Made by a program: the position numbers and the translations under genes. Positions 29,991 through 42,768 of a stretch of DNA of 56,586 nt are shown here, in pieces (positions within the stretch are counted from its first letter, which is position 1; each line of letters opens with the position of its first letter). The DNA comes from an uncultured Bacteroidales bacterium (GTDB lineage: Bacteria > Bacteroidota > Bacteroidia > Bacteroidales > Muribaculaceae). The stretch lies in assembly GCA_947175575.1 (NCBI GenBank), contig CAMWNG010000005.1, positions 1-56,586 on the forward strand. The letters run 5' to 3'. The notes below the pieces were generated by a model. The model did not search any database, was not told the DNA's origin, and worked only from the letters and a program-made list of their open reading frames with translations.

Positions 29991-31628
<1,638 letters not shown>

Positions 31629-31670: not shown

Positions 31671-31946
31671 TTACTTGTTGACTACGGCGAGCACTTCGCT
31701 CTGACGCATGATCAGGACTTTGTCGCCGTCGAGGTCAAGTTCAGTGCCGGCATATTTGCCGTAGAGCACTTCGTCGCCTTCTTTAAGAATCATTTCTTCG
31801 TCTTTGGTGCCGTTTCCTACAGCTACAACAGTTCCGCGTTGGGGTTTCTCTTTAGCTGAATCAGGAATGATGATGCCGGAAGCTGTAACTTCTTCGGCTG
31901 CGGTGGGTTGGATGATAACCCGGTCGGCAAGTGGTTTGAGTGTCAT
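31671..31946 (-). CDS. groS: Co-chaperonin GroES
   Basis: 91 residues from ATG 31944-31946 ([14 protein letters not shown]). Seven-subunit lid of GroEL. Mobile-loop region [17 protein letters not shown] and the end [13 protein letters not shown] are typical. A longer frame to 32057 has no support: the likely promoter is inside it. Confidence 0.97.
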
Positions 31947-31994: not shown

Positions 31995-32010
31995 TACATA
32001 ATTCGTGCCA
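31995..32010 (-). promoter_or_regulatory. Sigma-54-like -24/-12 element before groES
   Basis: On the minus strand TGGCACGAATTATGTA. The -24 part TGGCACG is a full match; the -12 part ATGTA keeps the T, G and A of TTGCA. The expected transcript start is about 40 nt before groES. No TAnnTTTG promoter and no CIRCE operator were found in this gap. A short dyad ATGCC/GGCAC overlaps the -24 part. Confidence 0.5.
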
Positions 32011-32134
32011 AACGGCATCGTCTGCCATTTTGTCCTATCTGAAAAACAAATCAGCATCTCTAAAGTTTGGAGGATAATGAAAAAATGACTAACTTGCGGC
32101 CGTATATCTATATCCGGAAATTAACTTTCGTAAT

Positions 32135-35100
32135 ATGTTTAGGAAACTTTGTCTTTCTCTCTTCACATTTCTTATGGCAATCAACAGTTCGTTAGCAAAC
32201 TTTCAAAATCCTGATTTCGCCTTCCCGGCCACAGTCATTACTGATGCCGAAGCGGTGCTGGCTGATTCCTCCCCTCAGCAGCCAGGACTTACGCGCCTGC
32301 TTGCACTGCTCCAGATAGTCCGCGCCACCGGCGACATCGGTTCCGATGCGCGATTTGATCTCCCCGCGCTAATTTCACGTGCCGCAGGGCAGGAGACTCA
32401 TGCTGATGTCCGTGGCCTGATGTATCTGCTCCAGGCTCGCACCGTCTATGATATTTATGAAGGAGGCAGATTTAAATATAATGGTGTCACTCAAGTCACC
32501 CCGCGTCCTGATGATATACGCGAGTGGTCCGGAGAGGATTTCAAAGCCGAAATTAAACGTCTAACCGAAAAATCTTCCGAATGGTTGTCGGCTTATTATT
32601 CCGCGCCTTTGTCAGATTACTCGGAGGTCGTGACTTGCGATTCCTTGAGTCAGGACATCTTTCCATATCTTCGTGATTTTTTATGGACACAGATTATTAC
32701 GATGACATCCGAAGAGGCCGAGTCGGTCTGTAATAATGCCGCGCTGCTTTCACCCGAAGGATCTGCCGAATGGGCGTGGTGGACACTCGGAGGTCTGGAT
32801 TCCGTAATGCTCGATCTGCCACAGATCAAATCTTTATTACCCTTGGCGAATTCTGATGCCGCCAAGGTTCTCATAATGCTGAACTGGCTTAGAAAAGCAT
32901 CGTCTGCCGCCGAAAAATTTGATGCTTACACTGCTGCCGAAGCGTTTCTTAAAACAGCTCCGAAGACTCCGATCACCGAATTATTGGCTCAGCATCTCTG
33001 CGGTTATCTCGATCCTTATGTCGAAATTGACTTCAGTGCGGTTGCCGCGCCGGGTGAGGATGTAGCGTTCATTCTGCACCATAATTTCTCCAGCAAAGTC
33101 GGATTGATTGTGCGGAAAACCGAAGACCACGACGATGTTCCGGTTTTTGAAATCTCTCTTGACACCGATTCCACTCAGTTTGACATAAAAGAAAAAATTG
33201 AACACTCATTCAAAACTCCCGGTATATATCAGGTGTCATCAAGACTAAACGGTAAGTCTCAGAATTGGGGTACGCAAACTTTAATTATTTCGCCTGTACT
33301 TGTAACCTTTATTTCGGGTTCAGAAAGTAATCTGTGGTTGGTGACCGACACCCGCACCGGTGCGCCGGTATCGGGAATCCGCCTTTCTATCGGTTATGAG
33401 GCCGGCGTCTCTGATGCGAACGGCCTCGTGAAATTGACCGGTGTAAAGAGTGGTTCCTGCAATATTACGGCTACTTTGCCTGATGGTACAGCTATTAAGT
33501 TTCCCGAAACAGTGTATATGAGTGAAGAGTATATAGGTGATTATGAAATTGATTATAGAGGGAAAATATATTTTTCTCGTCCGTTGTATCGTCCCGGTGA
33601 GACAGCTGAATGTGCCGTTGTGGTTTCGAAGGTTGACCGGAATTCAGCCCGGGTATGGCCGGAGGCAAAAATATGTCTCCAATGGGAAAATGCTTCCGGT
33701 GAAATAATATATTCCGATACGGTTACCACCGATCAATACGGACGTGCGACTTCCCGGCTTACACTTCCCGCCACAGCGATGGCCGGACGATATAACGTCA
33801 ATGTCAGAAATGTAGAGTCGGGGCGACATGTAGCCTACGGAGGTGTTATGGTGAGCGAATATAAACGACCTGTCTTTGAATTGGTCGACGTCGACATCGA
33901 ACAGGTTGCCGACAGCATCGTCATTCGAGGCCGTGCGGAGCGTTTTACGGGAGCTGCCGTTCCGGGAGCAAAAGTCACTGCTGACATTTCTGAGTTCCAT
34001 TGGTGGGCAAATTCTGAAAAGGCAAATATCGTGTTGGAAACGGTTACAGACAGGCAAGGACGCTTTAACATGTCTTTCCCGAGCGATAGTCTTAATGAGT
34101 TTGCTGATGTGCAGGTACTCATCAGATGTGTAGCTCCCTCCGGCGACGTAGCGGATGCCACGGAGCGTTTCCATTATCAGCCCGAGGCCGTTTTCAATTT
34201 CAAATCCACCGACTTTGACTGCTCGGCACCTTTTAAGGTCGATGTTTCTCTGAATTATGGTCTCCGCAAGCCTTTTTATCCGGTGGTGAACTGGAAGTTG
34301 CTCAAGGACAGACAGGAAGTGGCTTCCGGTTCTTCAAAACTTGAAAAAGACGGAATGGAGGTTGATTGGACGAAAATTCCGGCTGGAAATTATGAACTTA
34401 ATGTTACCGCCGACGGGTGTGCCTATTATACGATAGATGTTATCTTATATAATATAAAGCGGAATCTTGTACCTGATGATTCGGTGGATGTGATTCATGA
34501 AACCAAACTTTATGCCGCTCCGTTAGGAAATGTCGATGCAACGATCGGAGTGCCGGCTCGCAGCTATGTTTATGTCATCAGTACAGATGATAACGGCGAA
34601 GCCGAAATACGCGTAGAAAAGTTAGACAAGGGCTTCCATAATCTGACTCTGCGTGCAGCTTCCTCAGGATCAAAGACCTATACCATTCTGACCATACGCG
34701 GTGCATTGACTTCATTATCACATATCCGCGTTGAAGCGCGTGATCTTGACCGTCGGGTATGGCTTAGAGGTGAAGCATGGCGCGATAAAATTATGCCTGC
34801 CACTCCGCAACATTGGCGTTTGCGATTTGAGGATGCTCAGAATAATTCCGTATCCGGCGCTATGATCGCGACATTGTTTAACCGCGCGTTGCTTTCATAC
34901 GTTGACAATGATTGGTCTGATCTTCAGAGGATATTCACTATTTTCCCGAAAGATTATGGTTTCCATACTGATTTCCTTTGGGATTTGCATGGACATGTGG
35001 TTCAGGTTATAAACGGGCGATATGAAACCGGACGTATAAGGATTCCCGTATTCAAATATATAAGTGAGGGTACAAACACCCGAATTACATTATTTGCTTC

Positions 35101-37456
35101 CAATATGATGGCTAAATCTATAGTATCAGATAAACATTCCAGACTGGAAGGAGTTGTAGGTACAGATTCAGTTGAGGAGGAAGTCGCATTTGATAGTGAA
35201 GCTGAAGCTCCTGCGATGGCGGCGGGTGCGGTGATGCCGGTCGGTGAGAAACCGATTTTCCGCAATGCCGAGACTCTTCAGATCTTTTGGAAACCGAATG
35301 TCACCATCGGCTCCGACGGTGTGGCAGAAATAGAATTCGATATGCCGGATGCCATCGGCTCATGGCAGTTCAATGCCGTGGCTTGGGATATGTCAGGCCG
35401 GACTGCCAATTTGTCAGCTGCACTTGAATCTTCAAAACCGCTGACAATCGAAGGTAACGTACCGCGGTTTGTCAGGGCAGGTGACTCCGTATCCATTCCC
35501 GCAACTGTCATAAATCGTACGTCTGAAACAGTCTCGGCAACCGTCTCTCTCGAAACCTTCGATATTTCCACCGGAAAGATCCTTGACTCGTTCAGTTCGG
35601 ATGTTTCTCTTGATGCGACTGCGCAACGTCAGGTTGCACTCGATATTAAGGTTGATGGAACCCTTCCGATGATAGGTTTCCGCGCACTCGTAACCGGGGC
35701 TGATTTTACCGACGGTGAACAGATATCCATCCCGGTCCTTGAAGCATCGGTAAAGGCTGTCGATTCTGAAATTTTCTATCTTGATGGCGAACGTGATTCG
35801 GTACGTCTTACAATTCCTGCCGATAAATCAGGCGATGGCTTCGCGGCTTTGACTTTCTGTGGCAATCCGGTTTGGGATGTGGTCAAGGCACTACCGGCTC
35901 TCTATGATTTCACTCCTAAATCTGCCACGGCGGCCGTCAACTCGCTGTTCGGTGCGATGGTTGCGAAAGGAATTGCCGTGAATCATCCGGAGATAGTGAC
36001 AGTTGTGGACGAATGGGTCGCCAGTCCTGCCGATTCAGCACTCGTAAGCCCTTTGAAAAAGAATGAGGATCTGAAGATTCTTACCCTCGGTTGCACACCT
36101 TTCGTGGGCGCGTCGGACTATATGACACGTCAGATGCAGCGTCTGGCGGTCACTCTTGATCCTGAACAATCTTCGGCCGTGGCGGACGTCGCTGTCGGGG
36201 TGCTTGAGCGTCTCCAGCAGCCTGACGGCGGATTCAGCTGGATAGAATGGAATCCGGAATCTTCTTTGTTTATTACCGAATATGTGGTTCAACTCATCGG
36301 ACGTCTCAACCGTCTCGGTTTCACAGATGCGCGCACTGATTCCATTGTATCCCGGGCGTTCGGCTTCATTGACTCTCATATTGATCGTCTTGGCGAGCGT
36401 CAGGCTGCCTATCTTTACAGCCTGTATCCCGGCCGTCAGATGTCAGACGTTGTTAGGAAGTCGGTTGAAAAAGGCGTGGCTGAGGTAAAAAAAGACTGGA
36501 GAAAGGATGCTGTGGCATTCAAAGCCCTCGACGCCATGATTCTTGATGCTTACGGACACAAGACGGACGCTTCTGCCGTGATACGCTCGATCGCTGAATT
36601 CGCTGTGGCATCACCCACTGTTGGTCTTGAGATTCCTTCGGTCACTCTTGTCGATTCCTATGCGCAGATTCTTGAAGCTGTGGCTACTGTGGATCCGAAA
36701 TCCCAGTTGATCGACAGCCTGCGGAAATGGCTTGTTCTCAAGACACAAACCACGGATGATCTCGGTGCGTGGAATCCTACTGAACTCATTGCCGCGATGC
36801 TCGCTACCGGCTCCGGTTGGACGACCCTCGGCGACATTGATGCGCATGTCACGATTGACGGCGCTCCTGTGCTTCCGTCAAAGCTCGAACGCGCCACAGG
36901 CACATTCACTCTACGCCTGAAAGGTTCGGATGCTGTACGTACAGTCGAGGTTTCGCGCCGTGAAGGAGTATCCGTACCCTCTTACGGATCACTTATTACA
37001 GTTGCTGAAATCGATCTTGACTCAGTCGCTCCATCTGATTGCGGCGAGCTGTCCATAATGAAACGTATGCTCGTTCTGGACGGCGACGGGTGGCGGGACG
37101 CATCTTCCTTTGAGGCCGGACAGAAGGTTAAGGTGCAGCTTACGCTTCGTGCATCGCGCGAAATGGAATATGTGACGGTCGTTGACGCACGCCCTGCCGG
37201 ATTCGAGCCGGTGAATCAGATGCCGGGAAGAGCCGAAGGCGGAAGCACGCTGTGGGCTTACCGTACCAATGATCTTTCGACAACAGATTTCTTCATAGGT
37301 TACCTTCCCGAAGGCGTCAATTATCTGGAATATGAGGTCATTCCCGGCCATGCGGGTGAATTTATGTCCGGCGTAGCCACTGTGCAGAGCCAGTATGCGC
37401 CGGAGTTCACCGCCCGAAGCGGAGCTCGCAAGGTCTCTGTTTTTGAAAATCGTTGA
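32135..37456 (+). CDS. Alpha-2-macroglobulin-family protein
   Basis: 1773 residues, as in bacterial alpha-2-macroglobulins. Signal peptide 1-21 (no lipobox, so not a lipoprotein); macroglobulin-like beta domains in the first thousand residues, including the PLYRPGETAECAVVVSK segment of the MG2 type; the alpha-2-macroglobulin core near 1050 (WKPNVTIGSDGVAEIEFDMP); the helical thioester-type domain about 1230-1510 (RLQQPDGGFSWI), and a receptor-binding-like end. The thioester motif (C-x-E-Q) of trapping versions is absent; the family also has natural members without it. Probably a periplasmic or surface protease trap or scaffold. Its start is only 5 bp past TAACTTTC (32122-32129), a weak promoter match. 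Confidence 0.9.
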   Translation: MFRKLCLSLFTFLMAINSSLANFQNPDFAFPATVITDAEAVLADSSPQQPGLTRLLALLQIVRATGDIGSDARFDLPALISRAAGQETHADVRGLMYLLQARTVYDIYEGGRFKYNGVTQVTPRPDDIREWSGEDFKAEIKRLTEKSSEWLSAYYSAPLSDYSEVVTCDSLSQDIFPYLRDFLWTQIITMTSEEAESVCNNAALLSPEGSAEWAWWTLGGLDSVMLDLPQIKSLLPLANSDAAKVLIMLNWLRKASSAAEKFDAYTAAEAFLKTAPKTPITELLAQHLCGYLDPYVEIDFSAVAAPGEDVAFILHHNFSSKVGLIVRKTEDHDDVPVFEISLDTDSTQFDIKEKIEHSFKTPGIYQVSSRLNGKSQNWGTQTLIISPVLVTFISGSESNLWLVTDTRTGAPVSGIRLSIGYEAGVSDANGLVKLTGVKSGSCNITATLPDGTAIKFPETVYMSEEYIGDYEIDYRGKIYFSRPLYRPGETAECAVVVSKVDRNSARVWPEAKICLQWENASGEIIYSDTVTTDQYGRATSRLTLPATAMAGRYNVNVRNVESGRHVAYGGVMVSEYKRPVFELVDVDIEQVADSIVIRGRAERFTGAAVPGAKVTADISEFHWWANSEKANIVLETVTDRQGRFNMSFPSDSLNEFADVQVLIRCVAPSGDVADATERFHYQPEAVFNFKSTDFDCSAPFKVDVSLNYGLRKPFYPVVNWKLLKDRQEVASGSSKLEKDGMEVDWTKIPAGNYELNVTADGCAYYTIDVILYNIKRNLVPDDSVDVIHETKLYAAPLGNVDATIGVPARSYVYVISTDDNGEAEIRVEKLDKGFHNLTLRAASSGSKTYTILTIRGALTSLSHIRVEARDLDRRVWLRGEAWRDKIMPATPQHWRLRFEDAQNNSVSGAMIATLFNRALLSYVDNDWSDLQRIFTIFPKDYGFHTDFLWDLHGHVVQVINGRYETGRIRIPVFKYISEGTNTRITLFASNMMAKSIVSDKHSRLEGVVGTDSVEEEVAFDSEAEAPAMAAGAVMPVGEKPIFRNAETLQIFWKPNVTIGSDGVAEIEFDMPDAIGSWQFNAVAWDMSGRTANLSAALESSKPLTIEGNVPRFVRAGDSVSIPATVINRTSETVSATVSLETFDISTGKILDSFSSDVSLDATAQRQVALDIKVDGTLPMIGFRALVTGADFTDGEQISIPVLEASVKAVDSEIFYLDGERDSVRLTIPADKSGDGFAALTFCGNPVWDVVKALPALYDFTPKSATAAVNSLFGAMVAKGIAVNHPEIVTVVDEWVASPADSALVSPLKKNEDLKILTLGCTPFVGASDYMTRQMQRLAVTLDPEQSSAVADVAVGVLERLQQPDGGFSWIEWNPESSLFITEYVVQLIGRLNRLGFTDARTDSIVSRAFGFIDSHIDRLGERQAAYLYSLYPGRQMSDVVRKSVEKGVAEVKKDWRKDAVAFKALDAMILDAYGHKTDASAVIRSIAEFAVASPTVGLEIPSVTLVDSYAQILEAVATVDPKSQLIDSLRKWLVLKTQTTDDLGAWNPTELIAAMLATGSGWTTLGDIDAHVTIDGAPVLPSKLERATGTFTLRLKGSDAVRTVEVSRREGVSVPSYGSLITVAEIDLDSVAPSDCGELSIMKRMLVLDGDGWRDASSFEAGQKVKVQLTLRASREMEYVTVVDARPAGFEPVNQMPGRAEGGSTLWAYRTNDLSTTDFFIGYLPEGVNYLEYEVIPGHAGEFMSGVATVQSQYAPEFTARSGARKVSVFENR

Positions 37457-37467
37457 GACATAACGAT

Positions 37468-37517
37468 AAAAAACGCCTCCGAAAGACCGGAAACAGAATC
37501 TTTCGGAGGCGTTTTTA
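37468..37517. terminator. Bidirectional terminator, alpha-2-macroglobulin / PepSY-like genes
   Basis: Stem AAAAACGCCTCCGAAAGA / TCTTTCGGAGGCGTTTTT (37469-37486 with 37499-37516), loop 12 bp, with A- and T-runs so it can serve both converging genes. Confidence 0.85.
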
Positions 37518-37531
37518 TTTATAAAATTGTA

Positions 37532-37966
37532 TTACGGTTTCTGTGAGCCTGTTATCATGCCGTCGGATACGGTGTATTTTAGAGATGAATTCAGCAGAGT
37601 GACATTATATTCTGCGAAATTCCTGCTTATCACGAACACCTGATTGAGCATCTCGGCACCTTCGATGTAGTCGTATAGTTTGGCCGGGAGCTGGTCTGAC
37701 AATAGCATCTGCGGCAGAGGCAGCCCGTCGCCGTTAATGTCTGTCCAGGAATATTCGGAGTTGAAAGTAGCGGTAACACCGTTTTTTACCGTTACGGTAT
37801 AGCCGCCGTCATATGTGGGTGTGAACGCCTCAATGGCCGGATTTGGCCAGTATTTGGACATGAAATGTTGCAACGGCTCCGGGAGTTCGCTGTAAATGTC
37901 GCTTGACTGACAAGACCAGAGGGCCGGCAATGCGACAATAAGTAGGGGTAAAATAAACTTTCTCAT
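37532..37966 (-). CDS. PepSY-like (DUF2874) lipoprotein
   Basis: 144 residues. Signal peptide with lipobox LWSC, cysteine 19 as lipid site. The body (EPLQHFMSKYWPNPAIEAFTPTYDGGYTVTVKNG) matches PepSY-like domains (beta-lactamase-inhibitor-like fold, DUF2874), common on Bacteroidota lipoproteins. Role unknown; likely anchored in the outer or inner membrane. Monocistronic. Confidence 0.82.
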   Translation of the reverse strand: MRKFILPLLIVALPALWSCQSSDIYSELPEPLQHFMSKYWPNPAIEAFTPTYDGGYTVTVKNGVTATFNSEYSWTDINGDGLPLPQMLLSDQLPAKLYDYIEGAEMLNQVFVISRNFAEYNVTLLNSSLKYTVSDGMITGSQKP

Positions 37967-38018
37967 ACTTACTGAACGCTTTGCCGACCCTTTGGGTTCG
38001 GTGAAAGTTCGTCGATCT

Positions 38019-40019
38019 TTATTTTATCAGGCTGACCGAACGTGCGATGAAATCGCTGAGATCTTTGCCTTTCAACAGGCCGTTGCCGAGCAACGCAAGA
38101 TCGATGAGCTGACGCACCACAGGCTGTCCGGCGGCATAGTCCTTGATAAGTTTCTGCTGCTCGTCGCGGGCTGAGTTTACTGCAGCGAGCAGATCGTCTG
38201 TCTGTTTTTGTGCTTCGGCGTCAAGTTTGCCGTCGGTCGCTTTGGAACGGATTTCTTCAACCTTGGCGTTATCGGCATCCACAGTTTCCTCAAGGGGTTT
38301 GATCTGTGCCTCGAGAGCTGCGGTCGCTTTGTCACGGATATCCTCAACGAGTTTGCTCGATGTATTGACCACCAGGGTGTAGGAGTCGGGCATTTCGCCG
38401 TAGAAATTCATGCCGGGCTGCATGGCCGCCATGTCCTTCATTCGGCGCATGTATTCGTTCTGGGTGATTACGATAGGCATATCATCGGCTCCCATGGCCT
38501 CGAATTCCACCATGAACATCGCTTTTTCAACTTCAGGCACGGAGCTTTGGAACAGAGTGGTGAGAATGTTACGCTGTGTGGCTGTGAGGTTCACGGTCTT
38601 GCCCTCGTCCTTGCGTATGAGTCTGTCGATCACATCGGAGTCGACACGCACGAGACGCGTCTTCTCAAGCTTGTGTTCCAGCAGCTGCACGAAGTGAGAA
38701 TCAAGCTGACCGTCCATCAGCAGTACATTGTAACCCTTGTCATTGGCTGCTTTGATATAGTTGTACTGGGCGGTGGGGTCGGTGGTGTAGAGATACACGA
38801 TGTTACCGTCTTTTTCAGTCTGTTCAGGCTCAACGAGAATCTTGTATTCCTCAAGGGTGTAGAACTTGTGCGAGGTATCTTCGAGCAGGGTGAACTTCAT
38901 GGCGGCGTCGCAGAATTTCTCGTCGGTGAGCATGCCGTATTCGATGAAGATGCGGATGTCGGGCCATTTCTGTTCGAAATCGGCGCGATTGGCCTTGAAG
39001 AGGTCCTCAAGACGTGATGCCACCTTTTTGGTGATATAACCTGAGATTTTCTTCACGGCGGTATCGCTCTGCAGATACGATCGGGATACGTTCAGAGGAA
39101 TATCCGGAGAGTCGATGACGCCCTGGAGGAGCATCATGAATTCCGGTACCACACCTTCCACAGAGTCAGTCACATACACCTGGTTGCTGTATAGCTGGAT
39201 ACGGTTTTTGGTGATCTCGAAGTTGTTCTTTATCTTCGGGAAGTAAAGTATGCCTGTCAGTGTGAAGGGATAGTCCACGTTGAGGTGAATCCAGAACAGG
39301 GGATCGTCCTGTCCGGGATATAGCTCGTGATAGAACTCGAGATAATCCTTGTCGGTCAGCTCCGATGGCTTTTTCATCCACTTCGGCTCCGTTGCGTTTA
39401 TGAGCTTGTCGCCGCTGTAAACGGGGACGGGCAGGAAGCGGCAGTATTTCTTGAGTAAAGCGTCGATTCGTGTCTGGTCAAGGAATTCCTTGCTTTCATC
39501 ATCGATGTAAAGGATGATGTCTGTTCCGCGCGTGGTACGGTCGCCATCGGTCAATTCATACTCGGGTGAACCGTCACACTCCCAGCGTACGGGTTTGGCG
39601 TCCTCCTTGTAGCTCAGCGAGCTGATCACGACTTTCTTGGCCACCATGAAGGCTGAGTAGAAACCCAGACCGAAATGACCGATGATGCTGTTTGCCGTGT
39701 CCTTGTATTTCTCAAGGAACTCTTCGGCTCCTGAGAAAGCTATCTGATTGATATATTTGTCGATGTCGTCGGCGGTCATGCCTATGCCGTGGTCGCTGAT
39801 GCGGAGAGTCCCGTCCTCTTTGTTTACGGTGACTGTCACGTCAAGTTTGCCCGGCTCGCCTTTATATTCGCCGAAGGAGGCCAGGGTACGGAGCTTCTGA
39901 GTGGCATCCACTGCGTTCGATACCAGTTCACGAAGGAAAATTTCGTGATCGGAATAGAGAAATTTTTTGATTACGGGGAAAATATTCTCGGTTGTAACCC
40001 CGATATTACCTTTTGCCAT
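38019..40019 (-). CDS. htpG: Molecular chaperone HtpG (Hsp90 family)
   Basis: 666 residues from ATG 40017-40019 (MAKGNIGVTTENIF). Cytoplasmic ATP-driven chaperone. The ATP-binding N-domain is intact: LRELVSNAVDA near 30-43, SDHGIGMT near 80-87, and GHFGLGFYSAF near 117-127. No C-terminal MEEVD, as expected in bacteria. A frame reaching 40061 is open, but that lies upstream of the likely transcript start. Confidence 0.97.
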   Translation of the reverse strand: MAKGNIGVTTENIFPVIKKFLYSDHEIFLRELVSNAVDATQKLRTLASFGEYKGEPGKLDVTVTVNKEDGTLRISDHGIGMTADDIDKYINQIAFSGAEEFLEKYKDTANSIIGHFGLGFYSAFMVAKKVVISSLSYKEDAKPVRWECDGSPEYELTDGDRTTRGTDIILYIDDESKEFLDQTRIDALLKKYCRFLPVPVYSGDKLINATEPKWMKKPSELTDKDYLEFYHELYPGQDDPLFWIHLNVDYPFTLTGILYFPKIKNNFEITKNRIQLYSNQVYVTDSVEGVVPEFMMLLQGVIDSPDIPLNVSRSYLQSDTAVKKISGYITKKVASRLEDLFKANRADFEQKWPDIRIFIEYGMLTDEKFCDAAMKFTLLEDTSHKFYTLEEYKILVEPEQTEKDGNIVYLYTTDPTAQYNYIKAANDKGYNVLLMDGQLDSHFVQLLEHKLEKTRLVRVDSDVIDRLIRKDEGKTVNLTATQRNILTTLFQSSVPEVEKAMFMVEFEAMGADDMPIVITQNEYMRRMKDMAAMQPGMNFYGEMPDSYTLVVNTSSKLVEDIRDKATAALEAQIKPLEETVDADNAKVEEIRSKATDGKLDAEAQKQTDDLLAAVNSARDEQQKLIKDYAAGQPVVRQLIDLALLGNGLLKGKDLSDFIARSVSLIK

Positions 40020-40064
40020 ATTCAGGTTGAATTTTATTTTTATGTTATAATCATAAAACAAATC

Positions 40065-40080
40065 AGCAAAACAAATGCCA
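40065..40080 (-). promoter_or_regulatory. Sigma-54-like -24/-12 element before htpG
   Basis: On the minus strand TGGCATTTGTTTTGCT: -24 TGGCA and -12 TTGCT in exact canonical spacing. Expected start near 40054, about 35 nt before the ATG. No TAnnTTTG promoter in this 110-bp gap. The -24 part is also the right arm of the hairpin at 40076-40105. Confidence 0.55.
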
Positions 40081-40105
40081 CACCGTCAGAACTGACAATG
40101 TGGCA
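40076..40105 (-). terminator. Hairpin between clpC and htpG
   Basis: TGCCACA-2-GTCAG-2-CTGAC-2-TGTGGCA, 12 bp paired with 2-nt internal loops; 24 bp past the clpC stop and followed by TTTGTTTT. It may end the clpC transcript, and it may be a binding site for a regulator; see the htpG promoter. Confidence 0.7.
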
Positions 40106-40129
40106 TTTTTCGTATTTTTTAAGACAATT

Positions 40130-42721
40130 TTATGCCTCCGGAAGGGCTTTTGTGTCAGGTGTATCAAGGGCTGCGGCATCCGAAGCCACCACTGTGGTGG
40201 TGATTTTCTTCGCTTCGGGGTCGTAATCCACAATCACCTCATTGCCGGGAAGCAGGGCAGCCGACAGTATCAGTTCAGCCAGCTCGTCTTCCAGATATTT
40301 CTGAATGGCACGTTTGAGCGGACGTGCACCGAACTGCGGATCGTAACCTTTCTCGGAGATGAAATCCTTGGCCGCATCCGACAGGGTGAGAGTATAGCCC
40401 AAGTCGGCCAGACGGCGCCGGAAACCGGAAAGCTCGATGTCGATGATGCTGAATATTGCCTCGCGTGACAGGGGTTCGAACATCACTATATCGTCCACAC
40501 GGTTGAGGAATTCGGGCGAGAACGCTTTGTTGAGAGCCTTGCGTATCACGGCGTGCTGTGCTTCGGCCTGTGCCTCATTGTTGCCGGTGGTGAAGCCGAC
40601 GCCCGTACCGAAGTCTTTGAGCTGGCGGCTGCCTATGTTCGATGTCATGATGATGATGGTGTTCTTGAAATCGACACGGCGACCCAGGCTGTCTGTCAGA
40701 CGGCCTTCGTCAAGCACCTGGAGAAGCAGGTTGAACACATCAGGGTGAGCCTTCTCGATCTCATCGAGCAGAACGATGGAGTAGGGACGCCGGCGCACAG
40801 CCTCGGTGAGCTGGCCGCCTTCCTCGTAGCCTACATATCCCGGAGGTGCGCCCACGAGGCGGCTCACGGTGAATTTCTCCATGTACTCACTCATGTCGAT
40901 TCGTATGAGTGTCTCGGGAGAATCGAAAAGGAACTCGGCGAGCTTCTTGGCAAGATGGGTCTTGCCCACGCCGGTGGGACCGAGGAACATGAACGATCCG
41001 ATGGGACGGTTAGGATCCTTCAGACCGATGCGGTTGCGTCGGATGGCTTTGGCGATGGTGTCGATAGCGGCATCCTGCCCGATAATGGCCTTATGCAATG
41101 TCGGTGCCATCTCGAGCAGACGCAGGCCTTCGGCCTGAGCCACGCGTTGAACCGGAACACCTGTCATCATCGCCACAACCTCGGCCACTTTCTCTTCATC
41201 GACAACAACACGGTTCTCTTCAAGAGTCTTTTCCCATTCCTTCTTGGCCTCGTCGAGGCGTTCGATGAGTTTCTGAGCGCGGTCGCGCCATACGGCCGCC
41301 AGTTCGAAGTTCTGGGAGTGTGCGGCCTCGAGTTTTTTCGAGGTGGCTTCCTCAATCTGACCTTCGAGATCCTGAATCTCCGAAGGTACAACGACATTGG
41401 TAATATGAGCTCGAGCACCGGCCTCATCCAGAGCGTCGATGGCCTTGTCCGGGAAATTACGGTCGGAAACATAGCGGTCTGTCAGTTTGACACACGCCGC
41501 CAGAGCTTCGTCGGTATATTTTACATTATGATGATCCTCATATTTTGACCGGATGTTGTTCAGAATCACCAGAGTCTCTTCAGGTGTGGTGGGTTCGACC
41601 ATCACTTTCTGGAAGCGGCGTTCGAGCGCGCCGTCTTTTTCAATGTTGACCCTGTATTCGTCGAGGGTGGTCGCGCCGATACATTGCAGCTCACCGCGCG
41701 CAAGAGCGGGTTTGAGCATGTTTGCGGCATCCATCGAGCCCTGTGAGTTTCCTGCGCCGACTATTGTGTGTATCTCGTCGATGAACAGGATGATGTCTTT
41801 GTTCTTCGACAGTTCGTTAAGGATTCCCTTTATGCGTTCTTCGAATTCGCCGCGATATTTGGTGCCTGCCACAATGGATGCCATGTCCAGAGCTATCACA
41901 CGCTTGTTGAACAGTACGCGGGGAACCTGACGCTTGTTGATGCGCAGTGCCAGACCCTCCACGATGGCTGATTTACCCACACCGGGTTCACCGATGAGCA
42001 CAGGGTTGTTCTTCTTGCGGCGACTCAAAATCTGGGCGAGTCGTTCGATTTCTACTTCGCGCCCTACGACCGGGTCGAGCTGTCCTCGGGCAGCCGCGTC
42101 AGTCATGTCATGTCCGAATTTGTCCAGAAGAGGCGTATTTCCGGAATTGGATGCCTTTTTGGCGCTTGATTTCTGCGAGTTGCCGGATTGACGTCCCGAT
42201 TTGGGTTCGGAATCGCCGGGAGCGTCTTCCACATCGTCGAAGCCTGCTCCGGCAGTGGGACGTTCCTCCTGAATTCCTCTTGAATCCCGTACGGCCTGCA
42301 CGACATCCTCATAGGTCACTCCGGCTGAGAAGAACGGCTGGAACACCTCGGAATTGCGCACCTCGTAATTATGCAGGAGGGCGAGTACGACATGCAGGGG
42401 CTCTATGACCGCATCCTTGAGCATGCGGGCTTCAAGAACCGAAAGTTTGGTGATACGTGCAGTGAGGTCGCCCACTGTGGTGGCTTCCGGTGAAGCCGGG
42501 GCGGAGAGCTCGTAGAGTTCGTTGTCAAGATATGACCGGAGGTCCTCGGCGGTGCGACCCTTGGCCACACGGTCGATGGTCGAATACGATTCGCCGTCAC
42601 GGTCGGTCAGCACGGCGAGCATCAGGTGTGCCGGTTCAATCACAGTGTTGTTGTGCTGAATGGCCTGGGCGCGCGCCGCGCTCATCATGTTTTTGAAATT
42701 ATCTGAAAAAGTTATGTCCAT
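40130..42721 (-). CDS. clpC: ATP-dependent Clp protease ATP-binding subunit ClpC
   Basis: 863 residues. Unfoldase that feeds ClpP in the cytoplasm. Order: two N-terminal Clp_N repeats (1 to about 145), a Ser/Lys-rich linker, first AAA domain with [13 protein letters not shown], a UVR-like coiled segment (about 425-465: [21 protein letters not shown]), second AAA domain with [13 protein letters not shown], and a VGF loop (GTGVGFTTG) that docks ClpP. The UVR-type middle and VGF loop make it ClpC, not ClpB. Start ATG 42719-42721. In the chaperone block, but with its own promoter. Confidence 0.93.
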
Positions 42722-42752
42722 GCAATTTTATCTAACAGTTCAATTGACAGAT

Positions 42753-42768
42753 TACAAAAATCATGCCA
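42753..42768 (-). promoter_or_regulatory. Sigma-54-like -24/-12 element before clpC
   Basis: On the minus strand TGGCATGATTTTTGTA: -24 TGGCATG, -12 TTGTA, canonical spacing. Expected start near 42743, 22 nt before the ATG. A dyad ATACCATTTTGGCAT overlaps the -24 part, comparable to the ATGCCGTTTGGCA of groES. No TAnnTTTG box with proper spacing in this 119-bp gap. Confidence 0.55.

Follow-up and report, generated by a model that had tools for sequence, protein, structure and literature searches.

Putative sigma-54 promoters at chaperone genes of Muribaculaceae and a candidate activator without a sensor domain

Which sigma factor, and which activator, serve the chaperone genes of an uncultured, probably gut-dwelling Bacteroidales bacterium of the family Muribaculaceae (assembly GCA_947175575.1)? 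The question is raised by a stretch of 56,586 nucleotides (nt), positions 1 to 56,586 of contig CAMWNG010000005.1 (hereafter the window), in which groES, htpG and clpC, all on the minus strand, are each preceded by a -24/-12 element with sigma-54 spacing. Sigma-54 is more familiar as a factor of nitrogen metabolism and motility. The initial annotation had located the three elements correctly and proposed a sigma-54 regulon of heat-shock genes with an activator of the NtrC type. A chaperone regulon of sigma-54 finds support in a genome scan, the presence of rpoN, spacing controls and deep conservation, while neither the type of activator nor the supposed novelty holds, and control by heat is no more than a possibility. 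The explanation that we favour, with a probability of roughly 0.8, is that these are sigma-54 promoters of chaperone genes served by one enhancer-binding protein (EBP) that lacks a sensor domain and would act at upstream repeats.

Sigma-54-type elements in the window and in the genome

The three elements in the window are the following.

31995..32010, minus strand: sigma-54-type promoter of groES, TGGCACGAATTATGTA (pattern scan; conserved at groES across the order)
40065..40080, minus strand: sigma-54-type promoter of htpG, TGGCATTTGTTTTGCT (pattern scan)
42753..42768, minus strand: sigma-54-type promoter of clpC, TGGCATGATTTTTGTA (pattern scan)

They precede these genes.

29991..31625, minus strand: groEL (NCBIfam, over cut-off)
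31671..31946, minus strand: groES (NCBIfam, over cut-off)
38019..40019, minus strand: htpG (NCBIfam, over cut-off; query without start codon)
40130..42721, minus strand: clpC (ClpA/B/C-type unfoldase; best NCBIfam match ClpB, over the cut-off of no model)

From the end of the site to the start codon there are 48 nt at groES (start 31946), 45 nt at htpG (40019) and 31 nt at clpC (42721). The features expected of a sigma-54 promoter, GG at -24 and G(C) at -12 at fixed spacing, are present; the -12 dinucleotide is GC at htpG only and GT at groES and clpC.

In the 2.36-Mb genome of the window (G000), TGGCA-N7-TGYW has 81 matches versus 118 for the reversed pattern. There is no genome-wide excess, and because the matches are fewer than those of the reversed control the loose pattern alone is uninformative. 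The DNA around all 81 sites was examined, with gene calls from a codon model for which the window was the training set: 66 sites fall within predicted genes and 15 outside. Those that lie outside genes and at most 100 nt upstream of a start codon on the same strand number six and belong to groES, htpG, clpC, dnaK, grpE and slyD, so that all six well-placed sites precede folding or unfolding factors. The distance from site to start is 26 nt at grpE, 92 nt at dnaK and 40 nt at the gene of the SlyD-type prolyl isomerase. GrpE was identified via Pfam and SlyD via PDB sequences (E 3.7e-17), and dnaJ is the next gene after grpE. The promoters of dnaK, grpE and slyD lie outside the window and are therefore independent of the initial observation. 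A scan of this kind had been suggested as a check on the regulon, and its result is that the well-placed motif precedes chaperone-type genes and is not found equally in front of unrelated ones. One further site outside genes (C27:4929), 132 nt upstream of a called start, leads to an empty call. The site C3:9624 (TGGCACATTTTTTGTA), an ideal-looking promoter candidate, was rejected as it lies within a gene of the opposite strand.

Likewise, the absence of rpoN, named beforehand as an outcome that would speak against the regulon, is not what was found: in G000 the gene lies on contig C53 (E 5.3e-42). Of 21 genomes searched, G000 among them, 20 have it, as do 242 of 246 genomes of the class. Loss of rpoN was considered as a natural experiment and set aside, the four class genomes without the gene being too few; three of these four have an rpoN-bearing genus mate in the same table.

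Conservation and spacing in relatives

To assess conservation we used 80 htpG loci of relatives, mostly Muribaculaceae, Porphyromonadaceae, Bacteroidales or Bacteroides, with a few others. The strict pattern occurs within 200 nt of the gene at 48/80 htpG loci (L056, which has only 1 nt of sequence before htpG, is scored as a miss) and at 17/21 clpC loci. With the N7 spacing it is found at 58 of 101 htpG and clpC genes versus 6 of 740 other genes, and spacings N4-6 and N8-10 give 0-1 of 101. At groES the strict pattern is present in 25 of 30 loci from 30 families, a non-random sample consisting of the best-scoring 30 loci of a search of 99 genomes. The relaxed form TGGCAY-N7-G, with any base before the -12 G, precedes 37 of 39 groES genes versus 4 of 321 background upstreams, is missing only at L133 and L241, and is matched at other spacings in 0-9 of the 39; this set omits L122, which lies at a contig end and has the wrong upstream, and L233, which comes from the genome of L114. 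Across the class the motif was found at 16 of 17 readable groES loci, 3 of the 20 having been excluded because the script did not locate the start. Upstreams of dnaK, taken from 12 of 31 genomes, carry the motif in 10 of 12 cases, and in 8 of 8 within the genus.

Directly behind the -12 G, groES, clpC and dnaK frequently have T or A in place of C. As a side observation, over the loci compared (L113-L142 and L005-L084) groES mostly has A or T at this position and htpG and clpC mostly have C, which suggests a -12 variant particular to each gene.

The htpG site has to be read with more caution, since its TGGCA sits in the 3' arm of a probable terminator and the site is thereby partly confounded.

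40062..40115, minus strand: strong hairpin, probably the clpC terminator, holding the -24 box of htpG and a palindrome (folding of the stretch)

The hairpin has a folding energy of -23.9 kcal/mol (z -5.77), and the htpG promoter and clpC terminator seem to share bases. A count of such hairpins from 53-nt folds was discarded as too lenient. The sigma-54 case consequently leans on groES, dnaK, clpC and grpE more than on htpG. One could take the overlap, together with the loose pattern being rarer than its reversed control genome-wide, as a sign that all the elements are chance matches and that T-runs of terminators mimic the motif at htpG. Since the motif is conserved across families at groES, clpC and dnaK, and at this spacing specifically, we find this hardly credible; the spacing controls disfavour it.

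Published promoters and other readings of the element

A sigma-54 chaperone regulon is not new, although the initial annotation knew of no such description, because it has been reported in one study (PMC9723704) and predicted in another (PMC12316311). As far as the available parts of the former go, mapped 5' ends in Flavobacterium psychrophilum place a sigma-54 motif (the SM4 promoters) at groESL, lon, dnaK, grpE-dnaJ, htpG, clpB and other genes, and promoter mutagenesis backed the element for one operon. The chaperone starts with their -24/-12 elements are thus the same as what we describe. The two systems differ in that the SM4 set also includes gliding and exported proteins, whereas the well-placed strict sites of G000 are chaperone-type only. 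In the portions available, the same study leaves open the activators of its sigma-54 promoters, and it has three PF00158 proteins and no enhancer site, as opposed to the one strong EBP of G000 (PMC9723704). The second study predicts sigma-54 control of GroEL/ES, IbpA, GrpE, DnaJ and DnaK in Bacteroidota and of HSP90 in Bacteroidia; it is a statistical survey over COGs, and its available text neither names an activator or enhancer site nor describes the gene order for chaperones (PMC12316311). Its reference 80, attached to the GrpE/GroES sigma-54 statement, cites a nitrogen paper on Blattabacterium and, in the part of the text at hand, looks misplaced.

The element could also be read in another way. 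At several groES genes it forms an imperfect inverted repeat (TGGCA-N7-TGMCA), e.g. TGGCACAAAATGTGCCA, as would suit the site of a chaperone repressor, or of an activator working with the vegetative sigma factor. We consider this quite improbable. The 3' part of the element at htpG and clpC is TTGC(A/T), which is non-palindromic, and what stays fixed is the GG and the -12 G at sigma-54 spacing. In addition, the vegetative promoter box TAnnTTTG is absent within 160 nt of groES, htpG, clpC, dnaK, grpE and slyD, for the first three of which the initial annotation had said the same, and the mapped starts of F. psychrophilum follow the element, as far as that text was available (PMC9723704). The companion claim that TAnnTTTG is found at most other genes of the window proved too generous: only 9 of 29 others carry it within 130 nt, these 29 being hand-picked and many of them internal to operons, and because of this low number the contrast between chaperone and other genes is weak. 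We regard the chaperone-gene sites as very probably sigma-54 promoters. The CIRCE inverted repeat gave no exact match, nor did its shorter core, in the window and all fetched loci; the hrcA gene was not searched for.

A candidate activator and its gene neighbourhood

A sigma-54 promoter requires an EBP. Taking as strong a match to PF00158 with E < 1e-60, G000 encodes a single strong EBP (E 2.3e-66); its two other matches are weak, and one of them is ClpC. Exactly one strong EBP was counted, by eye, in 8 of 13 genomes of the genus. The G000 protein has 421 residues, with the AAA+ domain (PF00158, Sigma54_activat; 220.3 bits) starting at residue 23, a GAFTGA loop, and a Fis-type helix-turn-helix (PF02954) at 378-418, which is the C terminus. 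With the AAA+ domain beginning at residue 23 of 421, there is no sensor or receiver domain. The protein shares the AAA+ core and the Fis-type helix-turn-helix with NtrC-type response regulators and differs from them in having no receiver domain, which speaks against the NtrC type proposed at the outset. It is closer to PspF of E. coli, an AAA+ EBP without N-terminal sensor domain that activates a sigma-54 stress regulon, serves the psp genes and is restrained by PspA. Unlike PspF, however, the G000-type EBP contains a long linker, part of which is conserved and resembles SEREILYKILFDMK. In an alignment of 22 EBPs the core and the recognition end are conserved, as is this linker stretch, and most N termini are short; the few longer ones are possibly a matter of start-codon choice.

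The EBP gene of G000 stands in a string with genes for LptE, a 260-residue protein without Pfam match, and SecG. Among genomes of the order, 93 hold both an EBP ortholog and groES; in 42 of the 47 where both were found on one contig, the two share a strand and the ortholog precedes groES by no more than 4 kb, and the order EBP-lptE-(260-residue protein)-secG-groES-groEL was directly seen in relatives. F. psychrophilum appears to have the same arrangement, as, judging by locus numbers in the available text, an operon of a probable sigma-54-dependent regulator and LptE (THC0290_0733-0732) lies beside groES (0729) (PMC9723704). In the window itself, groES has as its divergent neighbour a gene for a 1773-residue alpha-2-macroglobulin-like protein (32135-37456, plus strand), the promoter of which therefore falls in the stretch upstream of groES as well.

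In 16 of 22 loci the EBP gene has a TAnnTTTG box close to its start (in 2 of these past the called start), and on these grounds the EBP is probably made from a vegetative promoter. In G000 a palindrome of the type described below (C12:19259-19271; L093 near 9260) precedes a TAACTTTG box by 11 nt, ahead of the acyltransferase-EBP-lptE-secG string, and an EBP bound there could block the vegetative promoter. Autoregulation of the EBP, suggested by this palindrome, was dropped, since the repeat is found upstream of the EBP in just 2 of 22 loci.

An enhancer-like repeat upstream of the promoters

The following two features of the window represent a repeat that may serve as the enhancer.

32023..32035, minus strand: near-match (one mismatch) to TGMCA-N3-TGKCA upstream of groES, GGACAAAATGGCA (read from sequence)
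40093..40105, minus strand: strict TGMCA-N3-TGKCA palindrome upstream of htpG, TGCCACATTGTCA (pattern scan)

The words TGTCA/TGACA are enriched upstream of the groES and htpG promoters, with no enrichment at clpC. Counting only upstreams that bear the promoter motif, and with other genes of the 80 htpG loci as background, TGMCA-N3-TGKCA is present in 22/117 chaperone upstreams versus 1/321 in the background, while other spacings give 0-2/117. By gene, it occurs at 3/25 groES, 13/63 htpG, 0/18 clpC and 6/11 dnaK. Direct TGTCA-N3-TGTCA repeats were found in 13/106 upstreams versus 0/321. Base composition differs between the samples (G+C 0.316 for groES of other families versus 0.412 for the background), and a shuffled control word, TCTGA/TCAGA, is likewise raised at groES (20/25 versus 93/321) because it overlaps the flank of the motif. 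The genome of the window contains 18 palindromes versus 10 matches of the reversed control. Five of the 18 lie outside genes, including those at htpG, at slyD and where the EBP-holding string has its promoter region; one gene-internal palindrome is 183 nt upstream of grpE. A separate intergenic copy (G000:C4:44626-44638; L226) precedes a gene of about 170 codons by 45 nt and is not among the sigma-54 sites.

We infer that the EBP probably binds the TGMCA-N3-TGKCA repeats, and its activation of the sigma-54 chaperone promoters seems likely. Alternatively, the promoters may be sigma-54-dependent and served by another activator, or by this one independently of the repeats; the repeats would then belong to a repressor or some other regulator, and the neighbourhood of EBP and groES would be an inherited order. 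Such a view could draw on the absence of the repeat at all 18 clpC genes, on repeats that come within 24 nt of the -24 box, on the fact that the EBP also neighbours lptE and secG, and on the occurrence of more than one strong EBP in 5 of 13 genus genomes and in most of the searched genomes of other families. We nevertheless think it unlikely, since G000 has one strong EBP, hence no second strong candidate, and a very small genome of the same class likewise has one.

The 0.49-Mb genome and flavobacterial endosymbionts

The latter genome (G360; 0.49 Mb, about 20% G+C; contig C1, L243-L270), the single sampled genome of its family, has kept rpoN. Its one strong EBP is encoded directly behind miaB, and upstream of its dnaK are TGGCACAAGTATTGAA and a near-palindrome, CTGCCATTTAGTCAG. 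The sample covered 200 of 490 kb, in which dnaK and grpE were the only chaperone genes found. In the available parts of a published account, rpoN is noted in Walczuchella, Uzinura and Blattabacterium, is termed unusual for insect endosymbionts, and nitrogen control is suggested (PMC3971599). Chaperone control may be an alternative reason for tiny flavobacterial endosymbionts to keep the gene.

Weighing the proposed circuit

According to the explanation that we favour, RNA polymerase with RpoN would sit at the chaperone promoters as a closed complex, to be opened by one PspF-like AAA+ EBP without a sensor domain, whose gene adjoins lptE and secG; in many relatives this gene string continues into groES-groEL. 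The EBP, probably synthesised from a vegetative (TAnnTTTG) promoter, would act from sites some 25-140 nt upstream of the -24 box, where it would bind either palindromes of the form TGMCA-N3-TGKCA or TGTCA-N3-TGTCA direct repeats. If it is made vegetatively, some other protein must govern its activity, and the folding state of the cell would be the natural candidate for such a restraint.

A number of observations weigh against this explanation. Regarding the promoters, spacers with at least 6 T occur in 29 of 63 htpG sites of relatives, as expected of a terminator; three gene-internal sites (C10:632, C13:2199 and C52:15111) precede another start by 54-86 nt, in no case that of a chaperone gene; one site outside genes (C98:3936) lies 130 nt before a non-chaperone gene; and in G016 (98% complete, 170 contigs) rpoN was not found, though the groES site and the EBP are present. 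As for the repeat, the strict palindrome covers only the 22 of 117 chaperone upstreams given above, with clpC contributing none, and its p-value of 9e-13 is optimistic because the motif was defined post hoc and the sequences are related. Furthermore, 13 of the 18 palindromes of G000 are within predicted genes and the EBP gene carries the repeat in only the 2 of 22 loci mentioned. G003 and G012 have additional, weaker PF00158 matches beside the single strong one. In the 0.49-Mb genome, grpE has a repeat upstream, TGTCAAAATGTCA, and no TGGCA; none of the five strict sites was seen to precede a chaperone gene, all of them falling within other genes or at their edges; and the EBP has GSFTSA at the position of the GAFTGA loop.

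The regulon may also be real and concern protein quality or envelope stress in general, not heat shock, with chaperone levels constant or linked to growth. The lack of a sensor domain and the linkage to lptE and secG would fit with this, as would the induction reported for F. psychrophilum on blood agar and by osmotic pressure, plasma and freshwater, in the part of that study available (PMC9723704). The targets in G000, by contrast, are exclusively cytosolic folding or unfolding factors, and we regard the general-stress interpretation as possible and somewhat doubtful.

Outside supplements, preprints and most subscription papers, the portions of the literature searched never name this EBP as the chaperone activator and never give the repeat. 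The main text of PMC12596196, on modules of B. thetaiotaomicron, has no match for rpoN, sigma54 or chaperon, and the available parts of PMC3162934, PMC2754498, PMC4072883 and PMC3547785 do not name a chaperone activator. Within that literature, three elements are therefore new: a candidate EBP, a repeat resembling an enhancer and, for G000, a narrow set of targets.

Together, a candidate activator, a defined repeat and a genus with seemingly few other strict sites turn known promoters into a circuit that can be assayed. More tentatively, and with the odds against it, sigma-54 might have shrunk in this genus, and perhaps in the 0.49-Mb genome, to a single-purpose chaperone sigma factor that works with one sensorless EBP at TGMCA-N3-TGKCA, restrained by chaperones or unfolded protein. 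If true, this would be an activator-based chaperone circuit distinct from those of RpoH and HrcA, and it would explain why tiny Bacteroidota symbionts retain rpoN.

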